Positions 1 through 14,271 of a stretch of DNA of 14,687 bases are shown piece by piece. The notes under the pieces are model-generated. The model did not search any database and was not told the origin of the DNA. It worked only from the letters and a program-made list of their open reading frames with translations. The position numbers were made by a program, and so were the translations under genes. The stretch is from Bradyrhizobium sp. (GTDB taxonomy: Bacteria > Pseudomonadota > Alphaproteobacteria > Rhizobiales > Xanthobacteraceae). The stretch is taken from NCBI GenBank assembly GCA_025960445.1, contig JAICIT010000014.1, positions 1 through 14,687 of the forward strand, read 5' to 3'. How positions within the stretch are numbered: the first letter of the stretch is position 1; every line of letters begins with the position of its first letter.

Positions 1-612
1 GAGAACCTCGTAAAGTTTAGAGATTGCGGCGTTCACATGCTCGATTCCGCGGACGATATCCTTCCGGCGGCGCTGAACTATCTCGGTCTCGATCCCAATT
101 CGACTAAACAGGCCGATCTGGAAAAAGCAGCCGATCTCGTACTGAAGATCAGGCCCTATGTCCGAAAATTTCATTCATCGGAATATTTGAGCGCACTGGC
201 GACCGGCGAGATCTGCCTGGTGGTGGGTTGGTCCGGGGATATCATGCAGGCGCGGAGCCGCGCTGCGGAGGCAAACAACGGGATCGAAATCGGATATGCC
301 ATTCCGAAAGAGGGAGCGCAGATGTTTTTCGACAATCTTGCGATTCCGGCCGACGCCAAGAATGTATCGGAAGCCTATGAATTAATAAATTATCTCTATC
401 GCCCCGCGATCGCGGCAAGGAATTCCGACTTTCTGTCGTACCCGAACGGCAATCTGGAGAGCCAGAAGCTGGTCGACGCTAAAATTCTCAACGACAAGAA
501 CATCTACCCGGATGAGGCCATGCTGAAAAAGTTGTTCGTCATCACCGCCCGTGATCCGGCCACGCAACGAACAATCAACCGGCTCTGGACCAGGGTAAAG
601 ACCGGAAGATGA
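1..612 (+). CDS. potF: Polyamine ABC transporter periplasmic binding protein, PotF type (5' end outside window)
   Basis: This is the C-terminal part of an extracellular solute-binding protein that captures putrescine or a related polyamine in the periplasm and delivers it to an ABC permease. The frame is open from base 1, so the gene starts upstream of the window and about 203 residues are visible. The first in-frame ATG at 37 is internal, because family similarity continues before it. PotF-like stretches include ALNYLGLDPNS, RPYVRKFHSSEYL, CLVVGWSGDIMQA, IPKEGAQMFFDNLAIPADAKN and the ending RLWTRVKTG. The family assignment rests on remembered similarity to E. coli PotF. The exact ligand (putrescine, spermidine or other) cannot be told from this half. 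The gene ends only 4 bases from the stop codon of the convergent lpxXL gene. The permease and ATPase genes are not in the window. Confidence 0.9.
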   Translation, partial: ENLVKFRDCGVHMLDSADDILPAALNYLGLDPNSTKQADLEKAADLVLKIRPYVRKFHSSEYLSALATGEICLVVGWSGDIMQARSRAAEANNGIEIGYAIPKEGAQMFFDNLAIPADAKNVSEAYELINYLYRPAIAARNSDFLSYPNGNLESQKLVDAKILNDKNIYPDEAMLKKLFVITARDPATQRTINRLWTRVKTGR

Positions 613-630
613 GCCGCTATCGCCAGCGGC
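613..630. other. Small inverted repeat at the convergent potF/lpxXL junction
   Basis: GCCGCT (613-618) and AGCGGC (625-630) form a perfect 6-bp stem with loop ATCGCC. It lies directly after the potF stop and overlaps the last codons of lpxXL. There is no T-run on either side, so it is not a classical intrinsic terminator. It could act as a weak bidirectional barrier or be chance in GC-rich DNA. Confidence 0.3.
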
Positions 631-1549
631 GGTGCAGCCACAGCCATTGATCGGGATATTCGCGAATCCATTCCTCCATCACGGTGGTGACCGCCTGCAT
701 CGTTCCCTGAACATCGATCTCACCGGCGGCGTTGCGCGCCGGCATTACCTCCTCTGACAGTTCGGCACGAAACCGGTGGCCGGGGAGGCGGATGATCCGG
801 ACCCCGTGAATGGGGCACTCGATCTGGCGCAGGAGTCGCGCCAGCATGGGATTAGCTTTCGTCTTGCGGCCGAAGAACATAACGTCGACCCCGTTGGTGA
901 GGTATTGGTCGACGAGCATTGCAACGTGTTGGCCGTTTCGCAGCGCCTCGGCTAACCTGATCGGAGCGTCTCGACCCGCCGGAATTAACGTTCCCATTTT
1001 CACCGCGCGCATTTCCTGAATGGCGCGGTCGGCGGAAGCGATGTTTGGTCGGCGGTAGAGGATCGCGGCGTCCAGCCCATGAGCCACGGCGGCCAAAGCC
1101 GGCAATTCCCAGTTGCCCAGATGACCCGCAAAAATCAGCGCTGGTTTGCCATCAAGCCGCAACTGCGCGAACAGCTCATGAGTCCGTGGCCCGATTTCGA
1201 TCCGGCTCTGATCGGGCAGCGCCGGATCATGTTGCCAGATGTGATCGAGATGGGCGAATTCGGCGCCGATGCGGCCGAGATTATCCCAGACACCGCCAAG
1301 GATGGTCTCGATTTCCTTAGGCGATTTTTCCGGAAAGGCGGCGGTCAGATTGGCGCGTCCAATCTTTTGCTCGCGCATCAGAGGTCCGATCAGGCGAGCA
1401 ATGCGACCGAACAGATTGGCGGTCTTGATCGGATCGAAATAGCGCGTGATGCGCAGCATTCCGACGGTCAGGGCGCCGACTGCGAGTTCGATCGCAGGTT
1501 TGATCGTATCGCGAAGACGGGCTTTCGTGCGAAGGAGCAGAGGATGCAT
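617..1549 (-). CDS. lpxXL: Lipid A very-long-chain acyltransferase LpxXL (LpxL/HtrB family)
   Basis: This is a predicted inner-membrane acyltransferase of 310 aa that moves the long (omega-1)-hydroxy acyl chain from AcpXL onto the lipid A precursor. Family marks are the catalytic HX4E motif in GHLGNWE (His143, Glu148), YRRPN at about 166-170, MLVDQYLTNGVDVMFFG at about 211-227, and the conserved ending around EYPDQWLWLHRRW. The hydrophobic N-terminal stretch at about residues 18-32 fits the usual membrane anchor. The length matches LpxL enzymes of about 300 aa. The choice of LpxXL over ordinary LpxL/LpxM comes from its position as last gene behind acpXL, fabZXL and the two fabFXL genes; the sequence alone shows only the superfamily. 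The start is the ATG at 1549. It has no strong Shine-Dalgarno, and the frame is open a little further upstream. A gap of 60 bases separates it from fabF1XL. Confidence 0.85.
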   Translation of the reverse strand: MHPLLLRTKARLRDTIKPAIELAVGALTVGMLRITRYFDPIKTANLFGRIARLIGPLMREQKIGRANLTAAFPEKSPKEIETILGGVWDNLGRIGAEFAHLDHIWQHDPALPDQSRIEIGPRTHELFAQLRLDGKPALIFAGHLGNWELPALAAVAHGLDAAILYRRPNIASADRAIQEMRAVKMGTLIPAGRDAPIRLAEALRNGQHVAMLVDQYLTNGVDVMFFGRKTKANPMLARLLRQIECPIHGVRIIRLPGHRFRAELSEEVMPARNAAGEIDVQGTMQAVTTVMEEWIREYPDQWLWLHRRWR

Positions 1550-1609
1550 TAGAAACCCACGACCGTTTTGCCGAAATCTGCCGGCTTGAAAGCGCAGCTT
1601 GGGCCGGGG

Positions 1610-2887
1610 TTAAACAGGCTCGCGCGTCAGAATCAACGAGGCATTCTGGCCACCGAAGCCGAACGAGTTCGACATTACGGCGCTAACGCGAGCGTCGCGT
1701 GCCTTGTTGGGAACCACATCAAACGGAATCGCCGGATCGGGCACGTCGTAGTTGATGGTCGGCGGAATTCTCTGGTGCTCAAGCGTCAGCAGTGAAAACA
1801 CTGCTTCGACGGCACCCGCCGCCGACAGCGTGTGGCCGACCATGGATTTGTTGGAGGACACTGGAACCTGCCCGGTACGCTCACCGAACACGGTCGAGAT
1901 GCCCAGATACTCCATCTTGTCGTTTTCCGGCGTGCCGGTACCGTGTGCGTTGATGTAGTCGATTTCTTCCGGGCCGATGCCGGCATCGGCGAGCGCGTTG
2001 CGCACACATCCGATGATCGGTTTGCCATCCGGGCTGGAGCGCGTCCTATGGAACGAATCGGCCAATTCACCGCAGCCGGCGAGTACGCCAAGTATCCTGG
2101 CGCCGCGCGACGTGGCGGCTTCAAAGCTTTCCAGCACCAGCGCACCGGCGCCTTCCGCCATCACGAAGCCATCCCGGTTTTTTGCGAACGGCCGCACCGC
2201 GGCCTGCGGTGGATCGTTATGGGTCGACAACGCCGACAGCAATGAGAAGCGAACCAGCGCTTCTGGATTCACTGATCCGTCGGTCGCCACACATAACGCA
2301 GCGTCCGCTTCGCCCCGGCGAATGGCCTCGACACCGAGTTGAATGGCGGTGCCGCCGGAGGCACAGGCAGTTGAAAGCGAAATCGGAGAACCCTTGGTGC
2401 CAAATTTCTCCGCAAGATGATCTGCGACCGAGCCGAACTGGAATCGATGATGGTAGCGCGTGAATCGTCCACCGCCGCTGACCCGCAGGATGGAATCATA
2501 ATTGAAATCGGTTTCACCGGTCGCGCGTCCAAGCTCCAGTCGTTGCGGCCATTCGACTTCCACGGGAGCAACGGCGAGAAACAACGGTCCAGGAAAATCG
2601 GCTTTGCTCCCGATCGCAGCCTGCGCGACGGCTTCCTCCGTCGCGATATCGGCCAGGCGCTCGGAAAGATCCGTCGACGAAAACGGTTCGATCGGCACAA
2701 AGTCGACGGTGCCAGCCATCGTCGTTTTCAAGCCGTCTGTGGGAAAACGCGTGATGGTGCGGATTCCGGATTCGCCTGCTGTCAGCTTCTTCCAGTTGTC
2801 GGCCTTGCCGGCGCCGAGCGAAGTGACGACGCCCATGCCGGTCACGACCACGACCGGCCTTCCGAGTTTATCGCGCGGTGCTGCCAT
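1610..2887 (-). CDS. fabF1XL: Beta-ketoacyl-ACP synthase FabF1XL (catalytically complete KAS II type)
   Basis: This condensing enzyme of 425 aa extends acyl chains by two carbons using malonyl-ACP. In this cluster it is predicted to build the C26-C28 chain on AcpXL. The N terminus has VVVTGMGVVTSLG. The nucleophile is Cys175 in STACASGG. The catalytic histidines are His315 in INAHGTGTPENDKMEY and His352 in SMVGHTLSAAGA, with conserved Lys347 in SSNKS. The C-terminal SNSFGFGGQNASLIL is typical of FabF. I chose the ATG at 2887 because the ketosynthase fold begins at residue 11 or so and GAGG lies 9 bases upstream. An in-frame extension to 2953 would only run into fabF2XL. The start is 23 bases after the fabF2XL stop. 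Unlike its neighbour FabF2XL it has every active-site residue, so it is probably the working half of a pair. Confidence 0.9.
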   Translation of the reverse strand: MAAPRDKLGRPVVVVTGMGVVTSLGAGKADNWKKLTAGESGIRTITRFPTDGLKTTMAGTVDFVPIEPFSSTDLSERLADIATEEAVAQAAIGSKADFPGPLFLAVAPVEVEWPQRLELGRATGETDFNYDSILRVSGGGRFTRYHHRFQFGSVADHLAEKFGTKGSPISLSTACASGGTAIQLGVEAIRRGEADAALCVATDGSVNPEALVRFSLLSALSTHNDPPQAAVRPFAKNRDGFVMAEGAGALVLESFEAATSRGARILGVLAGCGELADSFHRTRSSPDGKPIIGCVRNALADAGIGPEEIDYINAHGTGTPENDKMEYLGISTVFGERTGQVPVSSNKSMVGHTLSAAGAVEAVFSLLTLEHQRIPPTINYDVPDPAIPFDVVPNKARDARVSAVMSNSFGFGGQNASLILTREPV

Positions 2888-2910
2888 GTTCCCCTGCCTC
2901 AGTGCCTTGC

Positions 2911-4125
2911 TCACCCGATCGCTTCGACCAGCGCCATACCTTCGCCGCGCCAATGACCGGCTCCGAGGACTACAATCTGCGACGGGGGCTTGGACATTTC
3001 AACCTCGAGGCCGCTGGGGTCGTTGGGTGGAAACAGCGCGCCGCGTGAAATCGAAAGCGCTGCCAAGCCTATTCCGAGCGGAAATTGCGTTTCCATATTG
3101 TGACCGAACGAGCTGCCGGTCGCTCGCACGGGGAAATTCCGATGTGCGTCCAGGAAGGCCCGCTCCTCCGACGTGGCAGGCTCCGCGCCTGTTGCGCCCG
3201 TTATGATCGCCCCCTGCTCACCCAGCTTGCCGCCGAGCTTGGACCAGAGCTTCTCCAGGCTGTTCGTTACCTCTCCCGGATGCTTCCGATGCGCAAGATC
3301 TGCGACCACGTTCGTCAGGCGCGCGTATGGCCTGGCGCCCCGGGCTTGCGCGTGTGCTTTGGATTCGATGACGAGAAAAGCTCCGGCCGAGCCGAGCGCG
3401 AAACCGGCATTGTTCTGGCGCTCCCAAACTGGAGCGAACTTTCCTTTAAGATTGAAGCCGCCGAATTCATAAAGGACCAGGAGGTCCTTGCGCTCGCCGT
3501 TTTGCGAGCCTCCGATCAGGGCGATTTCGCTCTGACCCGCAGCAATGCGTGCAAGCGCGATCCGCGCGGCATCAACTCCGGCGGTTTCCTCGCCCATGAA
3601 CGTGCGGGACGATCCGGTCACGCCATGAACGATGGCAATGTTGCCGGCCAGCAGATTCGAAAGCTGTGCCAAAAACAGGGTCGGCCGGAGATCGTTCATC
3701 AGCCGCTCGTTCAGAAAGCCGGGAGCCGAGTTGCCCCGGGCTTGTAAATTAAGAATGTTGCTGTCGACAGCCAGATCGCGTTCGCCGCCGCCCGCCGCGA
3801 CGATCATGTCCATCCGGCCGAGGATTTCCTTGTTCCCCTTCAAGCCCGCCGAATCCAGCGCGAGCCCCGCGGCGTAGGTCCCGATGCGCTGCCACGCCTC
3901 CATCTGGCGCTGGTCGCCCTTTTTCGGAATCTGGGTGTCCAGATTTACCGGCGCCCAAGGATGGACGATATACGGTGCGAAGGTTTTCTCATCGACATTG
4001 ACGCGTCGTGCGTTTAGCGCATCCCAATTCGCGTCCAGTCCCTCACCAAGCGACGTCGCCAGGCCGATACCGGTGATCCAAACTTCCGCTGGGCCCGGAG
4101 TTGAAGGCGACTTCGTCTCGGTCAT
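2911..4125 (-). CDS. fabF2XL: Ketosynthase-fold protein FabF2XL lacking the active-site Cys
   Basis: This 404-aa protein has the thiolase/ketosynthase fold, seen in VWITGIGLATSLGEG near the N terminus, GQSEIALIGGSQNG at about 197-210, and ATGSSFGHNMETQFPLG at about 335-351. Aligned by eye with FabF1XL, catalytic Cys175 becomes Glu180, the first His becomes Ala311 and Lys347 becomes Gly337; only the second His (His342) is kept. No cysteine occurs anywhere in the protein. It therefore cannot form the acyl-thioester of a normal condensing enzyme. This is the pattern of KS-beta (chain-length factor) subunits, where Cys is usually replaced by Gln. I infer a heterodimer with FabF1XL that sets chain length. 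The ATG at 4125 overlaps the fabZXL stop as ATGA, which implies translational coupling and supports this start over an in-frame extension to 4236. The gene order matches rhizobial fabF2XL. Confidence 0.85.
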   Translation of the reverse strand: MTETKSPSTPGPAEVWITGIGLATSLGEGLDANWDALNARRVNVDEKTFAPYIVHPWAPVNLDTQIPKKGDQRQMEAWQRIGTYAAGLALDSAGLKGNKEILGRMDMIVAAGGGERDLAVDSNILNLQARGNSAPGFLNERLMNDLRPTLFLAQLSNLLAGNIAIVHGVTGSSRTFMGEETAGVDAARIALARIAAGQSEIALIGGSQNGERKDLLVLYEFGGFNLKGKFAPVWERQNNAGFALGSAGAFLVIESKAHAQARGARPYARLTNVVADLAHRKHPGEVTNSLEKLWSKLGGKLGEQGAIITGATGAEPATSEERAFLDAHRNFPVRATGSSFGHNMETQFPLGIGLAALSISRGALFPPNDPSGLEVEMSKPPSQIVVLGAGHWRGEGMALVEAIG

Positions 4126-4592
4126 GGCAGAACGACCTGCTGAGGAAAGCCGATACGCTTGGCCACGGCATCCATGTGTCCGCGCAAGTCCGCATTCGGA
4201 AACGGGATATGGCTGAAGGTAATCGTGGCGTTGCACCGCAGCTTGCCGCCGACGCTGACCCTCGCCTGCGTTATTGCGTAACCCGAGCCATCGTGAAGCA
4301 GGCTGGCCTCGACACTGAGCAATTCACCGGGCGAGACGAAGCCGCGCATCTTGGCTTCCTTGACCGCGGCCAAAAACGGCATCCGCTCAAATTTCATAAG
4401 AGCGAGCAGCAGCCAGCCGGACGTCTGAGCCATCGACTCGATCAGCAACACGCCAGGCATGATTGGATAGCCCGGGAAATGCCCTTCGAAAATGGTGTTT
4501 TGCTGCGGAACCTGCGCCTCTACCGTGATGGATTTCTCATCCAGATTGAGGTCGGTGATCCGGTCGATCAGCTGGAAATATTCAAGGTGCAT
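4122..4592 (-). CDS. fabZXL: 3-hydroxyacyl-ACP dehydratase FabZXL
   Basis: This is a hot-dog-fold dehydratase of 156 aa that removes water from 3-hydroxyacyl-ACP to give trans-2-enoyl-ACP. Here it probably works on long chains carried by AcpXL. The FabZ signature is clear: FEGHFPGYPIMPGVL with catalytic His38, followed by LIESMAQ with catalytic Glu52. The length is close to that of ordinary FabZ (about 150 aa). The C-terminal part after about residue 125 is less conserved, so it may be specialised. The start ATG at 4592 lies 9 bases after the acpXL stop and has only a weak Shine-Dalgarno, so translation may depend on ribosomes from acpXL. Its stop overlaps the fabF2XL start by 4 bases. It is called FabZXL rather than housekeeping FabZ because of operon position. 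Confidence 0.88.
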   Translation of the reverse strand: MHLEYFQLIDRITDLNLDEKSITVEAQVPQQNTIFEGHFPGYPIMPGVLLIESMAQTSGWLLLALMKFERMPFLAAVKEAKMRGFVSPGELLSVEASLLHDGSGYAITQARVSVGGKLRCNATITFSHIPFPNADLRGHMDAVAKRIGFPQQVVLP

Positions 4593-4601
4593 GACGGGCG
4601 A

Positions 4602-4883
4602 TTAAGCGCCCTTGGCGGCGACCAATTCGTCGATTCGCGCGCTGAGGTTTTTCAGGACAAAGTACTGTTCGGTGGTGGCCTTGCCGTCGTTAACTTCCTG
4701 CGTCCATTTTTCCAGCGGCAGCTTGATCCCGAATGCCTTGTCGATCGCGAACGCAATGTCGAGAAAATCGAGGCTGTCGATGCCCAAATCATCGATTGCA
4801 TGGCTTTCCGGCGTGATCGTGTCGCGTGGGATGTCGCAGGTTTCCGCGATAATCGTGGCGACCTGATCAAATGTTGATGACAT
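4602..4883 (-). CDS. acpXL: Acyl carrier protein AcpXL for very-long-chain fatty acid of lipid A
   Basis: This dedicated acyl carrier protein of 93 aa holds the growing C26-C28 chain on a 4'-phosphopantetheine arm before transfer to lipid A. The arm attaches to Ser37 in [18 protein letters not shown]. The sequence tracks remembered rhizobial AcpXL closely: the first residues [12 protein letters not shown], the segment [13 protein letters not shown], and the ending [18 protein letters not shown]. AcpXL differs from housekeeping AcpP by its longer C-terminal half, which is seen here. The ATG at 4883 has AAAGG 7 bases upstream. An in-frame extension to 5009 is rejected because it runs through the promoter and has no family similarity. 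It is the first gene of the lipid A operon, with a leader of about 90 bases after a sigma70-like promoter. Confidence 0.95.
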
Positions 4884-4980
4884 CACTAAGCCTTTGATAG
4901 ATTGATGATAAATTCCAAAATGGCACGGAGGCCATACGTAGTGCGCCGGAATGCCCGATCCCCATCCGGAGTCGAGTGCC

Positions 4981-5009
4981 CGTATATCGGAGCGGCGCTC
5001 TGAGTTCAA
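4981..5009 (-). promoter_or_regulatory. Predicted sigma70-like promoter of the acpXL operon
   Basis: Read on the minus strand, TTGAAC (5009-5004) is followed after exactly 17 bases by TATACG (4986-4981). These match the -35 box at 4-5 of 6 positions and the -10 box at 4 of 6. The start of transcription would fall near 4974, giving a leader of about 90 bases before the acpXL ATG. No other promoter is needed downstream, since the five genes are spaced by at most 60 bases. Confidence 0.55.
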
Positions 5010-5052
5010 TGGAGCCGGGATGGGCGGGCTGGATTAGGTTTCCGGACCAAAC

Positions 5053-5065
5053 GGCCCGACGGGCC
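5053..5065 (-). terminator. Candidate weak terminator after the small membrane-protein gene
   Basis: GGCCC-GAC-GGGCC forms a 5-bp GC-only stem 9 bases past the stop of the gene ending at 5074. On the minus strand it is followed by GTTTGG, so the U-tract is poor. It could separate that gene from the acpXL promoter just downstream. It is weak and unproven. Confidence 0.35.
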
Positions 5066-5073
5066 TTGAACCT

Positions 5074-5418
5074 TTAGAAATGCGGTGTGGAGATGCGGGC
5101 GCAATCACGCCGGCCCATCAGCACGCAATCCTGGGTGTTGCGCAAATCGGCAATGCTCATGGCGAGCCATATGCCGACTGCGGTCAGGGCGACGGTAAAG
5201 GCGAAGGCCGCCACGTTCGCCAGCATGCGCTGACGAAAATCGTCTGGCTCATCCCGGGGCTGCTCGTAGCGCGACAGATCGCCTGGCTGTCCCTTCGCGT
5301 CGTCACCAGGACGTTGGTCCGCTGAATATCCCCGTTCCGGCGGCCGCGCCGCGGTGCGCGGGCGGAATTTAAGCACGCGGTGCTCTTCCTGGGACGTGAT
5401 GGGCTGCTGGCTATTCAC
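5074..5418 (-). CDS. Uncharacterised single-pass membrane protein
   Basis: I do not recognise a named family for this 114-aa protein. Residues 1-60 are polar, rich in Pro, Arg, Asp and Gln, and probably disordered. One hydrophobic helix follows at about 67-90 (NVAAFAFTVALTAVGIWLAM). A short tail holds two cysteines, Cys98 and Cys106, in NTQDCVLMGRRDCARIS. With Arg/Lys-rich sequence before the helix, the N terminus is probably cytoplasmic and the Cys pair periplasmic, where a disulfide could form. The start is GTG at 5418, with GGAG 9 bases upstream. It lies 80 bases after the KirBac stop on the same strand and about 190 bases before acpXL, so it could share a transcript with the channel. Nothing in the sequence gives a function. 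I believe similar small proteins exist in Bradyrhizobium-like genomes, but I cannot check this. Confidence 0.65.
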   Translation of the reverse strand: MNSQQPITSQEEHRVLKFRPRTAARPPERGYSADQRPGDDAKGQPGDLSRYEQPRDEPDDFRQRMLANVAAFAFTVALTAVGIWLAMSIADLRNTQDCVLMGRRDCARISTPHF

Positions 5419-5498
5419 TGCTTCCAGCTCCGATACATCTTCATCTTAGCACGCCAGCTTATGAGGCTCAGAAAAATCTCGCCATGCCGGTAAGGGAG

Positions 5499-6380
5499 CT
5501 ATCCCTCCATAGTCTCATGGAACCTGCCGTAGTCTATTCTAAGCCGGCCTTCTTCCGATGTATCGAGGATATCGGCATAACGCTGGCCGAAGCGAAGCTC
5601 GGAATGGTCATAGGACTTTCGCGCGTGCACGGTTTGGGCCGCGACCACATCATATCCTGACACAACCACGACCAACGAAACCGCCGATGCGCCGAGCGCT
5701 TCTGGGTCGAGGCCGTAAAGCGGACTTTCCGGATCGATCACGTGATAGAGCGTCCAGCTCAAGGCGAGCGCGGGATGTTCGTTTCGAACCAGCCGCAATT
5801 CATAAAACCGCCGGAACGATTGCCCTTCAAGGCTCATCTCATTCTTCAGCAGCCACAACCTTGCCGATGCGTTGCCGATGATGTTGTGACGCTCATTGGC
5901 GAAACGAATCATCAGGGTCGGCTTGCCGTCGTGGCTTGAAATGACAGGGTGGTCAGCGAACAGCAATCGGGCATTCGGGCGCGCGAACCGCGCGAAGATT
6001 AGCCCGGTCATCAGTGACATCGAGAAGATGCCCGTGAACAACTCAACAGCGGCGACGAAATGCCCATAGTGGGTCTGCGGATGCATGTCGCCATAGCCGG
6101 CGGTCGAAAGCGTTTCAATGCTGAAATAGAGATAATCGATGTACGCGCCCTGCACATTCGATATCGGCTGATTCCCGATCCAGTAAAAGATGGCGAACAC
6201 CGCGTTGAACCCGATGAAGACCAACGCCGCCCCGCCGATAAAGGAAGGCCATGAGGCGGTCATGCAGCGATGGCTGATATCTGCCCAGAAGCTGAGCCGA
6301 AGACCCTCGGCGATGACTTCCCGGCCGCCGAGCCGGACGATGCGTCGTTTCGATTTTCGTTCACCGGGGCGGTTGGCCAT
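5499..6380 (-). CDS. KirBac-type inward rectifier potassium channel
   Basis: This is a predicted inner-membrane potassium channel subunit of 293 aa, acting as a tetramer. An N-terminal amphipathic slide-helix region covers about residues 22-40. TM1 is at about 46-67. The pore loop contains FSIETLSTAGYGDMHP, with the selectivity filter at 93-97. TM2 is at about 106-132 and ends in the typical LIFARFARPNARLLFA. The remainder, about 135-290, is the cytoplasmic immunoglobulin-like IRK domain, with KirBac-like stretches LMIRFANERHNIIGNA, YELRLVRNEHP and IDYGRFHET. The filter reads TAGYG where KirBac channels normally have TVGYG. The ATG at 6380 follows AAGAAG, a weak ribosome site. It is transcribed away from the ParB-like gene at 6493, and the 112 bases between them must hold both promoters. 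Confidence 0.92.
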   Translation of the reverse strand: MANRPGERKSKRRIVRLGGREVIAEGLRLSFWADISHRCMTASWPSFIGGAALVFIGFNAVFAIFYWIGNQPISNVQGAYIDYLYFSIETLSTAGYGDMHPQTHYGHFVAAVELFTGIFSMSLMTGLIFARFARPNARLLFADHPVISSHDGKPTLMIRFANERHNIIGNASARLWLLKNEMSLEGQSFRRFYELRLVRNEHPALALSWTLYHVIDPESPLYGLDPEALGASAVSLVVVVSGYDVVAAQTVHARKSYDHSELRFGQRYADILDTSEEGRLRIDYGRFHETMEG

Positions 6381-6492
6381 CTTCTTTGAAATCTCTTCGG
6401 GCGCTTGGTAACCTCGTCAATGGCCGATGCCATCAAGGTACAATCAGGCAAACATTAGCACTACTTTGCCAACTCAGACGGAGGTTCAAGCC

Positions 6493-7131
6493 ATGGCGAA
6501 TACGCGCGAGCCGATCCTTCAGCCCATTCCAATCCTCTCGCTCCGTCCAACCCAGATGACGGTTGGAATGATGGAGGTCAAGCGAAAGCGCAAGCACTTG
6601 CGTGAGCATTGGCGGCAGCACAAATCGAAGAAGAAGCAAGGCGAGTTTCTCGGCAGACATGCGATACCGGTCGTTCTGGGTCCAAACGACCGCCACTACG
6701 TGATCGACCACCATCACCTCGCCCGCGCTCTCCACGAAGAGGGGGTCAGCGATATTCTGGTGACCCTTATCGCCGACCTCACGATGGTCGATCCCGACGC
6801 CTTCTGGGGTGTGCTCGATAGTCACAAATGGGCATATCCTTATGACGCGAAAGGTGAGCGCCGCCACTTCACGGACATTCCAAAGACGGTGGCGGACCTG
6901 AAGGACGATCCATTTCGAAGCCTTGCGGGCGAACTGCGTCGCGTCGGCGGCTTCGCCAAGGACACGACTCCGTTCAGCGAATTCCTGTGGGCAGATTTTT
7001 TGCGGCGGAAAATGTCGCGCAAAAGCGTAGAAGATAACTTCGAAAAGGCGATCGAGAAGGCTTTAGGCCTGGCGAAAAGCAAGGACGCAATCTATTTGCC
7101 TGGCTGGTGCGGAGCCGCGTCCGATGATTAG
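6493..7131 (+). CDS. ParB-like protein (ParBc_2 family), chromosomal orphan
   Basis: This 212-aa protein resembles the ParBc_2 (putative ParB-like nuclease) family rather than true ParB. A conserved opening, about residues 10-30 (QPIPILSLRPTQMTVGMMEV), precedes a very basic stretch at about 30-49 (KRKRKHLREHW, then KSKKKQG). The ParB/sulfiredoxin-type core follows at about 56-80, with HAIPVVLGPNDRHYVID and HHHLARAL. The remainder is helical, with DPFRSLAGELRRVGGF and FSEFLWADFLRRKM. There is no helix-turn-helix partition domain and no parA beside it, so plasmid or chromosome partition is unlikely. The start is the ATG at 6493, because GGAGG ends 8 bases upstream; the in-frame ATG at 6427 has no such site. 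The function is unknown, and the basic patch suggests nucleic acid contact. It is convergent with the next gene, with only 18 bases between stops. Confidence 0.8.
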   Translation: MANTREPILQPIPILSLRPTQMTVGMMEVKRKRKHLREHWRQHKSKKKQGEFLGRHAIPVVLGPNDRHYVIDHHHLARALHEEGVSDILVTLIADLTMVDPDAFWGVLDSHKWAYPYDAKGERRHFTDIPKTVADLKDDPFRSLAGELRRVGGFAKDTTPFSEFLWADFLRRKMSRKSVEDNFEKAIEKALGLAKSKDAIYLPGWCGAASDD

Positions 7132-7149
7132 GGTTTTCGAACCGAACGA

Positions 7150-7728
7150 CTATTTCGGCAAACGGCCCATCATGTAGAATTCATCGTTCGGACGCATGTC
7201 CGTGACGTTCGCCAACCGGTTCGACAGCGCGAAAAACGCGGAGATCGCGGCTATGTCCCAGATGTCGTCGTCGCTGAAGCCATGACGCGCGATCTCCGCA
7301 AAATCCGAATCGGAAATCTTGTGCGCCTCAGTACTCACCTTCATCGCGAAGTCGAGCATCGCCCGCTGGCGCGGTGTGATATCCGCCTTCCGATAATTGA
7401 TGGCGATCTGGTCGGCTATTTGCGGGTTCTTCGCGCGGATGCGAAGGATCGCGCCGTGTGCGATGACGCAATAATGGCATTGGTTGGCGCTGGACGTGGC
7501 GACCACAATCATTTCTCGTTCGGCTTTGGTCAGTCCACTATCCCGCTCCATGAGGGCGTCATGATAGGCAAAGAACGCGCGAAATTCGTCGGGCCGATAC
7601 GCCAGCGTCAAGAAAACGTTCGGGACGAAACCGGACTTCTCCTGGAGCGCCAGCAATCGGGTACGGATATCGTCCGGCAAGCTCTCCATGGAAGGGGTCG
7701 GGAAGCGCTTTGCGATGGGTTGGGTCAT
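7150..7728 (-). CDS. Peroxidase-related AhpD/carboxymuconolactone decarboxylase-like protein
   Basis: This is a predicted cytoplasmic protein of 192 aa in the AhpD-like fold, of the subgroup usually annotated as uncharacterised peroxidase-related enzyme. It carries the redox motif in SSANQCHYCVIAHGAIL, with Cys84, Cys87 and His91, preceded by TKAEREMIVVAT with Glu70 and Glu72, one of which would be the proton-relay glutamate. AhpD-fold proteins of this kind can reduce peroxides or disulfide partners through the CxxC pair, but the substrate here is unknown. The C-terminal ending SNRLANVTDMRPNDEFYMMGR is also typical of the subgroup. I chose the ATG at 7728 (MTQPIAKRFP), because the 26 residues of an in-frame extension to 7806 look non-homologous. 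Its ribosome site is weak. It lies about 100 bases after the HerA-like gene on the same strand and could be read with it. Confidence 0.85.
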   Translation of the reverse strand: MTQPIAKRFPTPSMESLPDDIRTRLLALQEKSGFVPNVFLTLAYRPDEFRAFFAYHDALMERDSGLTKAEREMIVVATSSANQCHYCVIAHGAILRIRAKNPQIADQIAINYRKADITPRQRAMLDFAMKVSTEAHKISDSDFAEIARHGFSDDDIWDIAAISAFFALSNRLANVTDMRPNDEFYMMGRLPK

Positions 7729-7831
7729 GGATGATTCCGGCTCGGGCCGCCTGATGCGGCTAGGCCGGAACATAGTCCATGCCCGTAGCGCTGCAAAGCT
7801 TACCACGGCTAGTGGTCGTATCGGCTTCGGG

Positions 7832-9574
7832 TCAGCGCAGCGGTTTTTTCAGCAGCGAAAAGCGGTCTGGATCAAGACCCATCGATGGCTGCAGCATCGG
7901 TGCTTCCACCAAAACCGGCCGAGCCGCGGTCCGGTCATTGCTGCCAGGATCGCTGGGAGCATCGCGGCTCGATGTCGCGCCGCGCCAACGCTCCAGCACG
8001 GCTCCAACGAAATGCATGTCGTGACCTGAAGTGGCCGACGGCACAGTCGAGATGCTGGCTTCGCTCCGCGGCAATTGATGTACAGGTACCTCTTTGAAGC
8101 GCAGTCGCGTCGGAAGCGCCACGCCTTCGCCGAAAGCGAGCACTTCGCGGCTGCCGAGCGAGGGCACGAACGACAACAGGTTGGCCGCGGCATCGGAAAC
8201 GGCCGCGCGTAACAGCGACTGGTCGCGTTCGTTCGCAAGCCGCATCGCAAACAGCGTGTTGCACTGGGAAATGATCGTGGCATCGAGTTCAGCGGGACGT
8301 TGCGTGACTAGCCCGAGATAGACGCCGTATTTGCGGCCTTCCTTGGCGATACGCGACACTGCTTTGCGCGTAGGGCCGAAACCGATGCTACGATCTGCGG
8401 AAGCGTAACGATGGGCCTCCTCGCAAACGAACAGAAGCGGCGACACGCCATCGCTCCAAAGTCCGAAATCAAAAGCCATGCGGCAAAGCACGGAGACCAC
8501 GGAATCGACGACTTCGGCGGGGAAACCTGCCAACTGCATTACGGTCATCGGTTTGCCATTGGCTGGCAGCCGAAACAGATGACTGACAACGTCCGCCATG
8601 GTGTCGCCACCGACGTTGGCGTTGTCGAACATGAACGTATAGCGCGGATCATTGCGTACGGCTTCGATACGCGAAATCAGCTTGTGATAGATAATGCGCG
8701 AAGAGCGGTTCTCGAGCTTGCCCATCCGTTCATCGATCAACGAGATCAGGTCTACCAGGCGGTAGGGCACCGGCGTGTCTACGGTGTAGCCGGCACCCCT
8801 GGATTCGCTGCGCTTGACGGCCACGCGATCGCCGTTCTGGTATTGGGTATAGATGCCCTTCGCCACCGGAATGACTTCGGCGAGGATATCGAGCTCGTCG
8901 GGGACGCCGGGGCGTCCGGCAAACAACACGTCAACAATCTCTTCGAAATTGAACAACCAGAACGGCAGTTTCAGATTGCGCGGGTTGAGAACCAGGGACC
9001 GATCGCCGAAGCAGCGTCCGTATTCATTATGGACGTCGAGCAGGAAAATCCGCAAATTCGGCCGGGATTTGAGAATTTCGTTCAGGAGCAGCGACACGCC
9101 GGTGGATTTGCCGACGCCGGTAGAGCCGAGCACGGCAAAGTGTTTCGAGAGCATCTCCTCGATATCGACATAGGCGACGACTGACCGGTCCTGCTGCAGG
9201 GTGCCGACATCGATCTGATCCGAGCCGCTCGGCGCGTATACGGTGCGAAGCTCCTGACTCGTGATCAGGTCGACAGTATCGCCGATCGTCGGATAGTTGG
9301 TGATACCGCGCTGGAACTTGGGCCGTTCCGGGCCGCCAAGTATCTCCCCGAGCAGGTCCACCGAGGCGCTCGCGATGTAGGTGCCGGACTCCGGCAAATC
9401 TCCCTCGGAGGAGACTTCGGTGATCATCGCGACGATGGTCGAATTCGCGCAGCGAATGCTGACGAAACGGCCGACGGTGGCACGAACTTCCGACACCCCC
9501 AGTTGATTGCTCGCCAGCAGCCCGACCCGGGCAAGAGATCCACGTACCGAAATCACACGTCCGAAGGATGTCAC
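7832..9574 (-). CDS. HerA-type (DUF87) hexameric ATPase
   Basis: This 580-aa ATPase belongs to the HerA/FtsK-related superfamily, which forms hexameric rings that move DNA. The N terminus (GRVISVRGSLARVGLLA and on to about residue 100) looks like the HAS-barrel domain. Walker A is GSTGVGKS at 150-157, followed by FLLDVHNEYGRCF at about 177-189. Walker B is LLFVCEEAHRYA at 380-391 with acidic Glu385/386. It is followed by AVSRIAKEGRKYGVYLGLVTQ and ISQCNTLFAMRLANERDQ, which supply the sensor and probable arginine-finger residues. The last 75 residues are low in hydrophobic content and variable. HerA usually pairs with the nuclease NurA, or with defence effectors in bacteria; neither is in the window. 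The start is GTG at 9574 with GAGG about 10 bases upstream. The GTG overlaps the stop of a doubtful small ORF (GTGA). Confidence 0.88.
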   Translation of the reverse strand: MTSFGRVISVRGSLARVGLLASNQLGVSEVRATVGRFVSIRCANSTIVAMITEVSSEGDLPESGTYIASASVDLLGEILGGPERPKFQRGITNYPTIGDTVDLITSQELRTVYAPSGSDQIDVGTLQQDRSVVAYVDIEEMLSKHFAVLGSTGVGKSTGVSLLLNEILKSRPNLRIFLLDVHNEYGRCFGDRSLVLNPRNLKLPFWLFNFEEIVDVLFAGRPGVPDELDILAEVIPVAKGIYTQYQNGDRVAVKRSESRGAGYTVDTPVPYRLVDLISLIDERMGKLENRSSRIIYHKLISRIEAVRNDPRYTFMFDNANVGGDTMADVVSHLFRLPANGKPMTVMQLAGFPAEVVDSVVSVLCRMAFDFGLWSDGVSPLLFVCEEAHRYASADRSIGFGPTRKAVSRIAKEGRKYGVYLGLVTQRPAELDATIISQCNTLFAMRLANERDQSLLRAAVSDAAANLLSFVPSLGSREVLAFGEGVALPTRLRFKEVPVHQLPRSEASISTVPSATSGHDMHFVGAVLERWRGATSSRDAPSDPGSNDRTAARPVLVEAPMLQPSMGLDPDRFSLLKKPLR

Positions 9575-9768
9575 AGTCGTTGCACCTCAGATTGGGCCAG
9601 TGCCGCACTATGAAGGCGCCGGCTGGACAAACGGTTAAGCCGCCCCCGTTCCGGATTGCTCAAATCGGCTGCATCTCCGCCAGAGCCGTACCTTGGCGTG
9701 CCAGGCAGGGGCGCGAGAGCCTCATTTTGCGACGAATCTAGCTGTCCGGGGCTCGACCCGTTCATCAT
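9571..9768 (-). CDS. Doubtful small ORF overlapping the HerA-type ATPase start
   Basis: The reading frame gives 65 residues from the ATG at 9768, beginning MMNGSSPGQLDSSQ and ending LAQSEVQRL, and stops at 9571-9573. Its TGA overlaps the GTG start of the ATPase as GTGA, the arrangement of translationally coupled genes. Against it, there is no Shine-Dalgarno before either ATG, the composition is Ser/Gly/Arg/Leu-rich without a recognisable domain, and the frame stays open upstream to 9936 without family similarity. It could be a short coupled leader gene or a chance open frame. I do not recognise it. Confidence 0.25.
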   Translation of the reverse strand: MMNGSSPGQLDSSQNEALAPLPGTPRYGSGGDAADLSNPERGRLNRLSSRRLHSAALAQSEVQRL

Positions 9769-9806
9769 TGGCGTTCGGCGGGTTTTAACGCTTGGTTTAC
9801 GAAATT

Positions 9807-9826
9807 CGCGGGGCTTTGCCCCTGCG
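9807..9826. other. Stable GC hairpin in the intergenic region
   Basis: CGC-GGGGC-TTT-GCCCC-T-GCG: a perfect 5-bp GGGGC/GCCCC stem with a TTT loop at 9810-9822, extended by CGC/GCG across one bulged T. On the plus strand it is followed by ACCTTGTTGTTT, which is T-rich but not a true T-run. No plus-strand gene ends before it. It may be a terminator for an unseen transcript, a regulatory RNA structure or a repeat-like element. Confidence 0.35.
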
Positions 9827-9898
9827 ACCTTGTTGTTTCCGGACCGCTGATTCTGCGCTCGAGTTTCCGCCGATATCGATCGGGGAACCCTCTCATAA

Positions 9899-9926
9899 TT
9901 GACACCCGAAATATCGCGGCTAACCT
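9899..9926 (+). promoter_or_regulatory. Candidate promoter of the MFS gene
   Basis: A perfect TTGACA (9899-9904) is followed after 16 bases by TAACCT (9921-9926), which keeps the key T, A and final T of a -10 box but only 3 of 6 bases overall. A transcript would start near 9933, about 95 bases before the MFS start. The -35 box is strong and the -10 box is poor. Confidence 0.4.
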
Positions 9927-10008
9927 GCGGTCCCAATCAGGCAATCCATCTTCAAACGAGATGAGCTTGCTCAAAACAAAACAAGAAACAGGGCAGGGAC
10001 GGCGCGCG

Positions 10009-10032
10009 ATGACACGCGGCATCAGGTTTTGA
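10009..10032 (+). other. Seven-codon frame with ATG and ribosome site abutting the MFS start
   Basis: The ATG at 10009 has AGGGA 9 bases upstream and encodes MTRGIRF before a TGA at 10030-10032. That TGA overlaps the TTG (10029-10031) that opens the MFS frame. One extra T in the TTTT run at 10027-10030 would fuse this ATG in frame with the MFS protein. So it is either a coupled leader peptide or the true start displaced by a one-base deletion or sequencing error. Confidence 0.4.
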
Positions 10033-11282
10033 GTCGCTTGGCGCGGCCCTCCGCGCTCGCACCGTTTCGCATCCGGAACTACCGTTTCCAATGGCCTGCC
10101 GATCTGCTCACGTCCTGGGCGTTCGAGATGGAGACGCTTATTCTCGGTTGGTACGTGCTGGTCGAAACGAAATCGGTATTGCTACTAACCTTGTTTGCCT
10201 CGCTTACTTACATTGGCACCCTCATCGCGCCGATCTTCGGCGTCGCTGGCGACCGTATCGGCCATCGCGACCTGCTTGCCATGATGCGCTCCACCTATGC
10301 TGTGCTGGCGGGCACATTGATGACGCTGGCGCTGACGGGCCATTTGACGCCGCTCTATGTCTTCATCATCGCCGCGATCATGGGATTGGTCCGCCCCTCT
10401 GACCTCGGCGTTCGCGGCGCGCTGGTCGCGACGATCATGCCGCATGACCAGTTGATTGGGGCAATCAGTATTTCGCGAACGACAATGGATACCGCGCGCA
10501 TTGCCGGTGCGTTGAGCGGGGCGGCATTGTTCGCCGCTTTGGGCATGGGCCCGGCGTATGTGGCGATCACCGCTCTTTATGTGCTCGGCACATTGCTGAC
10601 ACTCTGCGTCATAGCACCATGGAAACCGCCCGCGGTGGATGCATCGCCCGCCGCAGTGCACTCACCGATCCGCGATCTGAAGGAAGGTGTGGCTTATGTC
10701 TGGACCACGCCGAGGATGCGGGCCGCGATCTGGATCGCGTTTCTGGCCAATCTCACGGCATACCCGCTTTCAAATGGACTGCTGCCTTATATCGCACGCG
10801 AGATCTACGGTACCAATCAGACCGGACTTGGCTATCTATCGGCAAGTTTCGCCATCGGCTCGTTGGCCGGCTCTATTCTGCTGAGCGTGATTGGCGGAAT
10901 CCGCGTTGCCCGATTGATGATCGCCTCGACGGTGATGTGGTACGCAGCACTTCTGGTGTTTGTGCAGATGCAAACCATTTCCGCCGCGATCGCTTGCCTG
11001 GTGCTCGCGGGATTCGCGCAAAGCCTGACCATGATCTCGATCGCGGTGATCCTGATGAGAACCGCAAGCGAGCGCTTTCGCGGCCGGGTGATGGGTGTGC
11101 GCATGCTCGCGATCTACAGCTTGCCGCTTGGTTTGCTGGCGGCCGGCAGCCTGATCGACGAGATCGGATTTGCCGCAACGGGCACGCTCTACGCGGCTGC
11201 GGGGCTCGCACTGATCCTGAGCATCGTGCTGCATTGGCGCGCAGACCTCTGGCATCTCCACGCGCCGGCAAATGCCAAGTGA
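10029..11282 (+). CDS. MFS transporter (EntS-like / MFS_3 type exporter)
   Basis: This is a predicted inner-membrane major facilitator superfamily protein of 417 aa with about 10-12 hydrophobic segments. MFS motif A appears as GVAGDRIGHRDLL at about 71-83, between the second and third helices. A second-half counterpart appears as ASERFRGRVMGVR at about 342-354. The opening (PSALAPFRIRNYRFQWPADLLTSWAFEMETLILGWYV, read as two parts) fits the subgroup related to enterobactin exporter EntS. The substrate is unknown, and no siderophore gene is nearby. The start is uncertain: the frame begins with TTG at 10029, which lacks a sensible ribosome site (AGG only 2 bases away), and there is no in-frame ATG before residue 34, inside the first helix. 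An ATG with a good ribosome site lies 20 bases upstream in another frame. The folE gene follows after 92 bases. Confidence 0.85.
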   Translation: MSRLARPSALAPFRIRNYRFQWPADLLTSWAFEMETLILGWYVLVETKSVLLLTLFASLTYIGTLIAPIFGVAGDRIGHRDLLAMMRSTYAVLAGTLMTLALTGHLTPLYVFIIAAIMGLVRPSDLGVRGALVATIMPHDQLIGAISISRTTMDTARIAGALSGAALFAALGMGPAYVAITALYVLGTLLTLCVIAPWKPPAVDASPAAVHSPIRDLKEGVAYVWTTPRMRAAIWIAFLANLTAYPLSNGLLPYIAREIYGTNQTGLGYLSASFAIGSLAGSILLSVIGGIRVARLMIASTVMWYAALLVFVQMQTISAAIACLVLAGFAQSLTMISIAVILMRTASERFRGRVMGVRMLAIYSLPLGLLAAGSLIDEIGFAATGTLYAAAGLALILSIVLHWRADLWHLHAPANAK

Positions 11283-11374
11283 AATGAATCCGACGACTAT
11301 CGAAATCAATTGGCGCGCGCGGTGAATCTCGCGTCCAAGGGACTTGGGAACCTTTTTCGTCAGGGATCATCTAA

Positions 11375-12040
11375 GTGGCATCTGCGTCGCACAAGGGCGT
11401 CAATTCGACGTCCACTATCAAGGAGCAGTCCCAAGTGAATCCGAATGTCCACGCGCTTGACCGCGCAAGAACGCCGACAAAACCGAGCCGCGCCGAGGTC
11501 GAAGCGGCGGTGCGAACCATCATCCGATGGACGGGCGAAGACCCCGACCGCGACGGCCTGATCGAAACGCCGGCTCGCGTCACCCGCTCGTTTCAAGAGT
11601 TCTTCTCAGGTTATGGCCAGGATCCGGTCGAGATCCTGGAAAAGACGTTTGAGGAGATTGAAGGCTACGATGAAATGATCGTCCTGCGGGACATCCGCTT
11701 CGAAAGCCATTGTGAGCACCACATGGCGCCGATTATCGGTCGGGCCTGGGTTGCCTACATTCCGAGTGGCCGGGTGGTCGGCATTTCCAAGCTGGCCCGG
11801 GTGGTCGATATCTACGCCAGGCGCCTGCAGATTCAGGAAAAGATGACGGCGCAAATCGCCAACACCATCAACGACGTACTCAAGCCACAAGGCGTTGGCG
11901 TGATCATCAAGGCGACCCATCACTGCATGACGACCCGCGGCGTTCACAAGCCGGGCACCGACCTGGTCACCAGCCGTATGCTGGGCTGTTTCCGCGACAA
12001 CGCCCTCACGCGGCAGGAATTCCTCGGGATGGCAAGTTGA
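11375..12040 (+). CDS. folE: GTP cyclohydrolase I (FolE, type IA)
   Basis: This cytoplasmic enzyme of 221 aa converts GTP to 7,8-dihydroneopterin triphosphate, the first step towards tetrahydrofolate. The zinc ligands are present: Cys113 and His116 in [11 protein letters not shown], and Cys184 in [12 protein letters not shown], an offset of three from E. coli Cys110/His113/Cys181. Other family stretches are [36 protein letters not shown] and SRMLGCFRD. The start is not settled. GTG at 11375 gives 221 aa and the extra 20 codons have high third-position GC, like coding sequence. GTG at 11435 gives 201 aa and has the better ribosome site, AAGGAG ending 9 bases upstream. I keep the longer form. 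The oxidoreductase gene begins 53 bases downstream and is probably cotranscribed. Confidence 0.95.
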
Positions 12041-12093
12041 TGTAAATTCCAGAACATCGCCTGGCACTACCACGACAGAGGAGGTGAGGGACT

Positions 12094-13620
12094 ATGGCTG
12101 AAGAGCAAGCCCAGCCCACTGGGCCGGACCTCACGCAGGGCATTCCCCTGGACGACTTCACCGGCGAGACCTTGCTGGGGCACGTAGGCGATGAAAGTGT
12201 TGTGCTCGTCCGCGCCGGTTCCGAGATATTCGCCATCGACGCCCATTGCAGCCACTATCACGGACCGCTCGCGGAGGGACTTGTGGTCGGCGCCACCGTT
12301 CGTTGTCCCTGGCATCACGCCTGCTTCGATCTGCGAACGGGCGAGGCAACGCGCGCACCGGCGTTGAATGCACTCTCGGTCTGGGAAGTCGAACACGAGG
12401 CCGGTCGGATCTTCGTCCGGCGAAAACGACAACAGCCGCAGCCAAACGTAAAACCGCCCGCCGGTGCGCCTGACAAGATCGTGATCGTCGGCGGCGGCGC
12501 CGCTGGACTTGCAGCGGCCGACATGCTGCGAAGGCGGAACTTTCGGGGCAGCATCGTCATGCTAAGCAACGACGCAGCGCCTCCGGTCGATAGGCCGAAC
12601 CTGTCCAAGGATTATCTTGCCGGCAATGCACCTGAGGACTGGTTACCGCTGCGCCCCGACAGCTTCTACACCGACTCCGGAATCGATCTTCGGCTCGAAA
12701 CCACTGTCGTCTCGATCGATACCAAAGCGCGCAACGTTCTTCTCGAAGGCGGCGCCGCTGTTCCCTACGACCGCCTGTTGCTGACAATGGGGGCCGAGCC
12801 AGTCCGGCTGCCGATCCCCGGCACGGACCAGCCGCACGTCCATACTTTGCGTTCTCTTGCGGATAGCCGTGCGATCATTGGGTCCCTTGACGGGGCCCGC
12901 CGCGCGATCGTGATTGGCGCCAGCTTTATCGGCCTGGAAGTGGCGGCGTCGTTGCGCGCACGCCAGATCGAGGTTCACGTCGTGGCTCCCGAGCAGCGGC
13001 CGATGGAGCGGGTGCTGGGTCCGCAGCTGGGCGACTTCATCCGCGCGCTACACGACCAGCACGGTGTTGTGTTTCATCTCGGCGATACCGTTACTGCGAT
13101 CGATGGAAAGCGCGCGACGCTGAAGAGCGGCGGCATGCTGGAGGCCGATACTGTCGTTATCGGGGTGGGTGTCCGTCCCCGCCTCGCGTTAGCCGAACAA
13201 GCCGGCCTTAAGCTTGACCGCGGCATCGCGGTCAATGAATTTCTCGAAACCAGCATTCCAGGAATCTATGCGGCGGGCGATATCGCGCGTTGGCCGGACG
13301 TGCACTCTCAGCAAAATATTCGGGTTGAGCATTGGGTGGTGGCCGAACGCCAAGGCCAGACCGCCGCACGCAATATGCTGGGTGAGCGCGAGCGGTTCGA
13401 TGCGGTGCCCTTTTTCTGGAGTCAGCACTACGACGTGCCGATCAACTATGTCGGCCACGCCGAATCGTGGGATGAGATCACGGTTGGCGGCGACATTGCC
13501 GCGAGGGACTGCCTGTTGCAGTACAAGAGCAAGGGACGCGTCCTCGCTGTCGCCTCGATCTATCGCGATCTCGAGAATCTCCGGACGGAATTCGAGATGG
13601 AGCGGAAAGGCGCGGCCTGA
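12094..13620 (+). CDS. Rieske [2Fe-2S]-FAD/NAD(P) oxidoreductase fusion (AIFM3-like)
   Basis: This 508-aa fusion protein has a Rieske iron-sulfur domain at about residues 12-110. Its cluster ligands are Cys52 and His54 in HCSHYHGPL and Cys71 and His74 in RCPWHHACFD. A pyridine nucleotide-disulfide-type FAD reductase follows from about 127. The FAD-binding site is KIVIVGGGAAGLAAADML at about 128-145. A second, NAD(P)H-binding Rossmann motif is AIVIGASFIGLEVAASLRA. The late FAD motif is GIYAAGDIARWPD, followed by a reductase C-terminal domain. The order matches bacterial relatives of AIFM3. It probably passes electrons from NAD(P)H through FAD to the Rieske centre and then to an unknown acceptor. 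The ATG at 12094 has a near-perfect ribosome site, GAGGAGG, 9 bases upstream. Its closeness to folE may be chance, and no oxygenase partner is seen. Confidence 0.92.
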   Translation: MAEEQAQPTGPDLTQGIPLDDFTGETLLGHVGDESVVLVRAGSEIFAIDAHCSHYHGPLAEGLVVGATVRCPWHHACFDLRTGEATRAPALNALSVWEVEHEAGRIFVRRKRQQPQPNVKPPAGAPDKIVIVGGGAAGLAAADMLRRRNFRGSIVMLSNDAAPPVDRPNLSKDYLAGNAPEDWLPLRPDSFYTDSGIDLRLETTVVSIDTKARNVLLEGGAAVPYDRLLLTMGAEPVRLPIPGTDQPHVHTLRSLADSRAIIGSLDGARRAIVIGASFIGLEVAASLRARQIEVHVVAPEQRPMERVLGPQLGDFIRALHDQHGVVFHLGDTVTAIDGKRATLKSGGMLEADTVVIGVGVRPRLALAEQAGLKLDRGIAVNEFLETSIPGIYAAGDIARWPDVHSQQNIRVEHWVVAERQGQTAARNMLGERERFDAVPFFWSQHYDVPINYVGHAESWDEITVGGDIAARDCLLQYKSKGRVLAVASIYRDLENLRTEFEMERKGAA

Positions 13621-13693
13621 AAGCATCGATGCTGCGGCGGCGTTTACATTTAGCGATTGAGCATATCGAACTGCGATAGCACCAGTTTGCCGG

Positions 13694-14227
13694 TCAGTTG
13701 GCCGGGTAGCTTAGCGTGCCATCGGGATTCGCAATGGCGGCGGGCGTCATGCTGGCCGGGTTGACGGCGCCGGGTCCGAGTATATGCCAAACCGTCTCGC
13801 CGGCATCGAGTAGGTAGTCGGCTATGATCCGGCGATGGCAGCGCCACCAGACGGCTTCGGCGCACATAACGCTGCAGCGCTCTCGGCGGCCAACCTCCAG
13901 CAGCTTTGTAAGGCCTGTTCGAAAGCTGCTGCCCATCGCGTAGTCGGCGTAATTGTGAAAACTCTGATTTTCCCAGTAGCCGTTCGTGGCGGGCGGAATG
14001 CCTTGGGTGTGCGAGCGTCGGCCTCCCAATTCCGCGATGTATGCGTAGCCGATTTGATGCTCTGACAGCGCCTGCGGGAGCGTCTCGCGATTATATTGCG
14101 GGTTCGTCCGCGAGCGCGGAATACTGCGGACGTCGATTACCAGGTTGACGCGGGAGGCGTGAAGCAGCTCGACAAATTGCTCGATCTTCCGGGTGGAATG
14201 ACCGATGGTGAAGAATGGCGCCGCCAT
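13694..14227 (-). CDS. DUF488 family protein
   Basis: This 177-aa cytoplasmic protein of the DUF488 family has no established function that I can name. Family marks are TIGHSTRKIEQFVELL at 7-22, DVRSIPRSRTNPQYN at 32-46, YIAELGGRR at 63-71, and MCAEAVWWRCHRRIIADYL at 121-139, whose Cys122, Glu124, Cys130 and His131 are the usual conserved residues. The length is in the normal range for the family. The ATG at 14227 places the first conserved strand at residue 5, as expected, although the ribosome site is weak. It converges with the Rieske/FAD gene, leaving 73 bases between the stops, and is divergent from the gene starting at 14449. A terminator-like hairpin sits in its leader at 14272-14291. 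Confidence 0.88.
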   Translation of the reverse strand: MAAPFFTIGHSTRKIEQFVELLHASRVNLVIDVRSIPRSRTNPQYNRETLPQALSEHQIGYAYIAELGGRRSHTQGIPPATNGYWENQSFHNYADYAMGSSFRTGLTKLLEVGRRERCSVMCAEAVWWRCHRRIIADYLLDAGETVWHILGPGAVNPASMTPAAIANPDGTLSYPAN

Positions 14228-14271
14228 AGAACCCGAGCTTTGCAGTCAGCCGTTGCCACGGCAATCTTAAA

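Follow-up and report, generated by a model that had tools for sequence, protein, structure and literature searches.

Pairs of a ketosynthase (KS) and a chain-length factor (CLF) are known from polyketide, aryl polyene, and polyunsaturated fatty acid (PUFA) synthesis. In type II polyketide systems, a KS-like subunit without activity serves as the CLF, and how many extensions take place is described as depending primarily on a channel at the interface of the two proteins (PMC12664062), while the KS-CLF of PfaC performs the final elongations in PUFA synthesis (PMC12895367). The acpXL-lpxXL cluster for the very-long-chain fatty acid (VLCFA) of lipid A, which matters for the strength of the outer membrane in rhizobia and other bacteria, has so far been described as having two 3-oxoacyl-acyl carrier protein (ACP) synthases, FabF1XL and FabF2XL. 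In this report, we focused on fabF2XL in a 14,687-nucleotide stretch of Bradyrhizobium sp. (contig JAICIT010000014.1, positions 1 to 14,687, hereafter the window), for which an original prediction made from the sequence had proposed a role as CLF, helping to set a length of C26-C28. Our analysis suggests that FabF2XL is probably an obligate, noncondensing, CLF-like subunit of the FabF1XL ketosynthase. As the original prediction remarked, the gene names normally imply two ordinary synthases, and the relevant passages of PMC11901934 and PMC5613085 do call both genes synthases or elongation proteins. These passages say nothing of a lost active site, and the terms "cysteine" and "chain length factor" are absent from PMC11901934. 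We found no earlier statement of a noncatalytic FabF2XL partner in the open-licence literature, and one may exist elsewhere.

The first important finding is that FabF2XL has lost the catalytic residues of a condensing enzyme. The gene (2911..4125, minus strand) encodes a KS-like protein of 404 aa, predicted to be noncondensing, which scores 627 bits against NCBIfam model NF005084/PRK06519 (cut-off 320) and whose closest relative is a Bradyrhizobium sp. protein with 95% identity. The thiolase-type 3-ketoacyl-ACP synthase (KAS) fold is present, and no Pfam C-terminal ketosynthase domain was detected at E 0.001. In agreement with the original prediction, Cys175, His315, Lys347, and His352 of FabF1XL are aligned with Glu180 (codon 3586..3588, minus strand, in a TFMGEE motif), Ala311 (3193..3195, minus strand), Gly337 (3115..3117, minus strand), and His342 (3100..3102, minus strand), i.e., FabF2XL does not have the set of Cys, two His, and Lys that characterizes active elongating KAS II (FabF). 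In a wider alignment, the column of the first His moves by one residue, the letter in the window becoming Gly; it is never His. Our sample of 207 loci plus the window, in which some loci overlap, yielded 198 FabF2XL and 195 FabF1XL reading frames. The FabF2XL alignment built from it has 174 rows, the window being entered twice, with 173 distinct sequences over a 200-residue stretch. Whether the loss of the Cys is universal had been set beforehand as a test capable of refuting the prediction, and none of the 173 distinct orthologues has a Cys at this position, which is occupied by Glu in 172 and by Asp in one. The lone Asp is found in the orthologue at L180:3913-5160, within LMGEDPGG. Gly178 and Glu179, directly before the former nucleophile, are invariant across the rows. 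Among the 171 rows with a letter at the relevant columns, there is no His at the first His position and no Lys at the Lys position, and the second His is retained in 156. Judged by these residues, the substitution of the nucleophile is not due to chance, FabF2XL cannot act as a condensing enzyme of the ordinary kind, and the catalysis implied by the name of family NF005084 is contradicted. The original prediction also drew attention to the absence of Cys from the entire protein, which is borne out by the reading frame. We rejected this as a signal; the Cys-free state alone is unremarkable because a 404-aa protein has a ~6% chance of lacking Cys (at a Cys frequency of 0.69% in 14 window products) and because it is not conserved, with 66 of 174 rows having no Cys from residue 13 on.

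The second finding is that this altered protein consistently accompanies an intact one. fabF1XL (1610..2887, minus strand; NF005076/PRK06501), which encodes the predicted partner, an intact elongating ketosynthase, starts 23 bases after the stop of fabF2XL. The window protein was correctly described as fully intact, its catalytic Cys175 being encoded at 2363..2365 (minus strand), and the four catalytic positions are conserved in an alignment of 162 FabF1XL rows: at each of them 161 rows are readable and all 161 have the expected residue, while one row has an X or a gap (the X at the Cys position is in L173). We sampled 297 genomes of the order and found each of the two proteins in 79, which are the same 79 genomes. 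FabF1XL is encoded downstream on the same strand for 195 of the 198 FabF2XL reading frames, with stop-to-stop distances of 0.8-1.7 kb, and two of the three exceptions (L187 and L019) are cut by contig ends. Extra copies are mostly paired as well, with two FabF2XL-FabF1XL pairs each in L153, L154, L159, and L163. Like a CLF, FabF2XL is thus a KS-like protein without the catalytic Cys whose gene adjoins that of an intact KS. At a larger scale, FabF2XL was found in 35 of 398 genomes of a phylum sample, all from the class to which the window belongs; Legionella, which is said to make VLCFA lipid A, was not among the genomes examined. In a sample of the class itself, 18 of 385 genomes were above the family cut-off.

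Several of the additional copies deserve mention in their own right. The second pairs in genus g289 (L153:12446-14783, L154:2159-4619, and L159:1802-4074) are diverged, with the family model matching the first two-thirds of FabF2XL only and the Glu at the Cys position retained. Another fabF2XL-fabF1XL pair (L209:5977-8498) lies on a conjugative plasmid of Bradyrhizobium sp. Ash2021, beside a gene for an S-adenosylmethionine-dependent methyltransferase, and no acpXL was found within 6 kb of it.

The third finding comes from structure models. A model of the FabF2XL monomer, based on a 16-row alignment, has a predicted local distance difference test score (pLDDT) of 87.2 and a predicted template modelling score (pTM) of 0.87, and its weakest part besides the N terminus is residues 111-160, with block means of 51-71. 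The FabF1XL-FabF2XL complex, whose modelling had been proposed with the original prediction, was predicted as a single chain from a 29-row alignment; it shows a KS-CLF arrangement with a pLDDT of 89.0 and a pTM of 0.91, and the blocks corresponding to residues 111-160 (chain residues 101-150) reach 74-89. When the pair model was searched with Foldseek, 6riw, the KS-CLF didomain of PfaC, was matched with a TMq of 0.73 over 983 columns covering both halves, whereas the other 49 chains among the matches listed have TMq values of 0.43-0.44. With VIA-align, every one of the 50 entries listed falls on the FabF1XL half alone and 6riw is not among them, so the match to 6riw is owed to Foldseek and not to VIA-align. 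PfaC resembles the modelled pair in associating a KS with a CLF, in overall arrangement, and in handling long chains. It differs in that KS and CLF follow each other, in that order, as domains of one megasynthase chain, whereas here there are two genes with the CLF-like one first, and the FabF1XL/FabF2XL system works with a dedicated AcpXL on a saturated C26-C30 chain destined for lipid A. The Foldseek matches of the FabF2XL monomer model include 1tqy_B, which we take to be the CLF chain of that entry.

Together, these findings suggest how the two proteins might work. FabF1XL and FabF2XL would pair as a heterodimer with the usual KS-CLF arrangement, in which FabF1XL would contribute Cys175-His315-Lys347-His352 and carry out the condensations on AcpXL, and FabF2XL would contribute the second side of the dimer interface, which in related enzymes houses the end of the acyl pocket. 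In this position, FabF2XL would probably make room for, and limit, the C26-C30 chains. The general part of the original prediction, a KS with a noncondensing KS-like partner, is well supported by the residues, the co-occurrence, the gene order, and the pair model, and physical binding of the two proteins in the cell is very likely. That they share a tunnel through which FabF2XL controls length has, in our judgment, about an even chance of being true. Published genetics bear on the need for fabF2XL. In Agrobacterium fabrum C58, an insertion in fabF2XL is reported to remove all VLCFA from lipid A, and supplying the gene in trans is reported to bring part of it back (PMC11901934). This partial rescue by fabF2XL on its own speaks for a need for the gene itself. 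Mutants in acpXL, fabZXL, fabF1XL, and fabF2XL are reported to have been unobtainable in Bradyrhizobium ORS278 (PMC5613085).

A number of observations weigh against a CLF-like FabF2XL that is obligate for FabF1XL. First, fabF2XL, fabF1XL, adh, and lpxXL are reported to form one transcript in A. fabrum (PMC11901934), so that the insertion there may have a polar effect on fabF1XL that accounts for part of the defect. Second, the pairing is not without exception. No complete FabF2XL in the set other than the frame at L171:4022-5350 in genome G428 lacks an adjoining FabF1XL, and the FabF1XL of this genome (L283:975) is on another contig with no FabF2XL beside it. On plasmid pRPC1 of Rhizobium sp. 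BG4, there is a FabF1XL-type ketosynthase with an intact active site (L208:5806-7278), and FabF2XL, acpXL, and lpxXL were not found in the 13 kb at this locus; this gene may indicate what a FabF1XL is capable of on its own. Its neighbours resemble, by eye, an HlyD-type adaptor and a major facilitator superfamily transporter, an efflux-like setting. Third, the pair model was built from a deeper alignment than the monomer model, AlphaFold might dock any two ketosynthases in this way, and a KS homodimer has the same arrangement. Fourth, a co-variation analysis of the two proteins (171 pairs, effective number 58) gave no clear excess at the presumed interface, whose two segments are joined by 10%, 4%, and 6% of the top 20, 50, and 100 co-varying pairs against 4.2% expected, although on balance co-variation neither helps nor harms the heterodimer. 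Finally, we found no experiment on the binding, activity, or chain length of the FabF1XL/FabF2XL pair.

Comparison with the CLFs of type II polyketide synthases highlights both similarities and differences. As in the KS-alpha/CLF pairs of the actinorhodin type (1tqy), the genes adjoin, one product is intact while the other has no catalytic Cys, and the fold is the same. We compared seven Streptomyces KS-alpha/CLF pairs from plasmids, in which six CLFs are named as such and that of L244 is named ketosynthase-like only. The local motifs look alike, with [ED]QAGGLD in six of the seven CLFs and GEEAAGVD-like strings in FabF2XL. In the Streptomyces proteins, however, the Cys position has Gln in six and Gly in one, and in all seven the first His is replaced by Asp, the second His is replaced by Arg, and the Lys is kept, whereas the corresponding residues in FabF2XL are Glu, Ala, and mostly His, with the Lys absent. 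FabF2XL has therefore lost a different set of residues, and the Gln that is usual at the Cys position of type II polyketide CLFs is not found in it, being Glu or Asp instead. Beside ApeO-ApeC from aryl polyene synthesis and the ishigamide KS-CLF, FabF2XL is a full-length protein whose two halves are both folded in the model. A search of plasmids for KS-CLF genes via FabF1XL found none. In phylogenetic trees, FabF2XL is placed beside CLFs, with a support of 54 in a first tree and of 92/97.6 in a second, the latter not starred; the second tree omits KS_L220, a reading frame bearing a long extension, which the first included. A single clade of FabF1XL and FabF2XL was not rejected by the approximately unbiased (AU) test (p-AU 0.348). 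Both outcomes are unsafe because of long branches, that of FabF2XL amounting to 1.32 changes per site. We also considered a recent duplication of FabF1XL as the origin of FabF2XL, which was not recovered in the trees, though the AU test does not reject it. On present evidence, FabF2XL would work like a CLF, whether or not it belongs to the polyketide CLF family.

If FabF2XL is such a subunit, there is a single condensing enzyme in the pathway, assays of FabF2XL alone will fail, reconstitution requires the co-expression of both genes, and what fixes the C26-C30 length in lipid A becomes directly testable. KS-CLF pairs would then also operate in envelope lipid metabolism, beyond the three pathways in which they are known.

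What FabF2XL does within the heterodimer is the point on which the best surviving alternative differs. FabF2XL might be needed for stability or for recognition of AcpXL only, with length being set by FabF1XL, LpxXL, or substrate supply. All the evidence for the heterodimer fits this role equally, and the A. fabrum fabF2XL mutant is reported to lose VLCFA altogether with no other lengths appearing (PMC11901934). Moreover, length depends on other factors too, because a complemented adhlA2XL mutant of A. fabrum is reported to have 26:0 as its minor VLCFA instead of 30:0 (PMC11901934). Two features of the alignment nevertheless argue, indirectly, against a role in stability only. First, FabF2XL is most conserved in the region that covers the former nucleophile elbow and a stretch at the presumed interface, with a mean conservation of 0.72 for residues 100-185, compared to 0.59 for the rest of residues 13-400 and 0.50 for residues 285-400, the region in which active enzymes have their His motifs. 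Second, a GGGERD motif (residues 112-117, codons 3775..3792, minus strand), in which Gly114, Arg116, and Asp117 are found in 174 of 174 rows and Glu115 in 171, aligns with the gating loop of FabF, so that Gly113 stands opposite Ile108, a residue reported to gate the acyl pocket (PMC7138838). The residue opposite Ile108 is always small (Gly in 158 rows, Ser in 8, Asn in 5, and Ala in 3), as expected for an opening of the pocket, and would fit a pocket whose end is opened. GFGG gating loop 1 is found in 160 of 162 FabF1XL rows and not in FabF2XL, where the GFGG strings of 5 of the 174 rows sit elsewhere in the protein. On balance, we regard a role confined to stability or AcpXL recognition as rather unlikely.

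The three other explanations fare worse. The Glu in place of the Cys had led the original prediction to raise a KSQ-like decarboxylase, which would convert malonyl-AcpXL to acetyl-AcpXL or control the use of malonyl groups. The replacement of the Cys by a polar residue and the second His in 156 rows could be read in this way. In KSQ domains, however, the Cys is replaced by Gln and both His are required, whereas FabF2XL has no first His in any of the 171 rows with a letter, has lost the Lys as well, and has Glu or Asp, never Gln, at the Cys position. Furthermore, an acetyl starter is not needed where a long acyl chain is being extended. This role is consequently disfavoured and appears very improbable. 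It is even harder to maintain that FabF2XL is the ordinary second 3-oxoacyl-ACP synthase of its gene name and annotations, given no Cys at the nucleophile position in any of the 173 distinct orthologues, no first His or Lys in the rows with a letter, and no Pfam C-terminal domain detected at E 0.001. Least credible of all is a decaying passenger gene, for which the long branch, the low conservation of the C-terminal half, and the shortened second copies in L153 and L159 could be cited, against 53 strongly conserved positions, a distribution over exactly the same genomes as FabF1XL, and a published knock-out that is reported to lose VLCFA and to be partly complemented (PMC11901934).

The surroundings of fabF2XL in the window are those of the acpXL-lpxXL lipid A VLCFA cluster, with the order acpXL-fabZXL-fabF2XL-fabF1XL-lpxXL, all on the minus strand. 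The specialised acyl carrier protein is encoded by acpXL (4602..4883; NF005079), the dehydratase by fabZXL (4122..4592), and the acyltransferase that transfers the VLCFA onto lipid A by lpxXL (617..1549; NF005120). The stop of fabZXL overlaps the start of fabF2XL in the sequence ATGA. NCBIfam cut-offs are reached by the products of acpXL, fabF2XL, fabF1XL, and lpxXL, with the exception of fabZXL (96 bits against 113 for a general FabZ model). No adh lies between fabF1XL and lpxXL in the window (1550-1609), where rhizobia including Sinorhizobium have this gene, and adh is reported to be likewise missing in Bradyrhizobium ORS278 (PMC5613085). Among 127 neighbourhoods from loci of at least 9 kb, 101 have the order seen in the window, 58 without adh and 43 with adh before lpxXL.

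A last observation concerns FabF1XL itself. At residues 104-117 (window 2537-2578), a conserved PxExxW replaces the usual GSGIGG loop of FabF, with Pro108 in 162, Trp113 in 161, and Glu110 in 156 of 162 rows, and a GSGIGG-like string is found in 2 of these rows. By alignment, this loop appears to lie where FabF has GSGIGG, and it is a possible counterpart of the GGGERD loop in FabF2XL.
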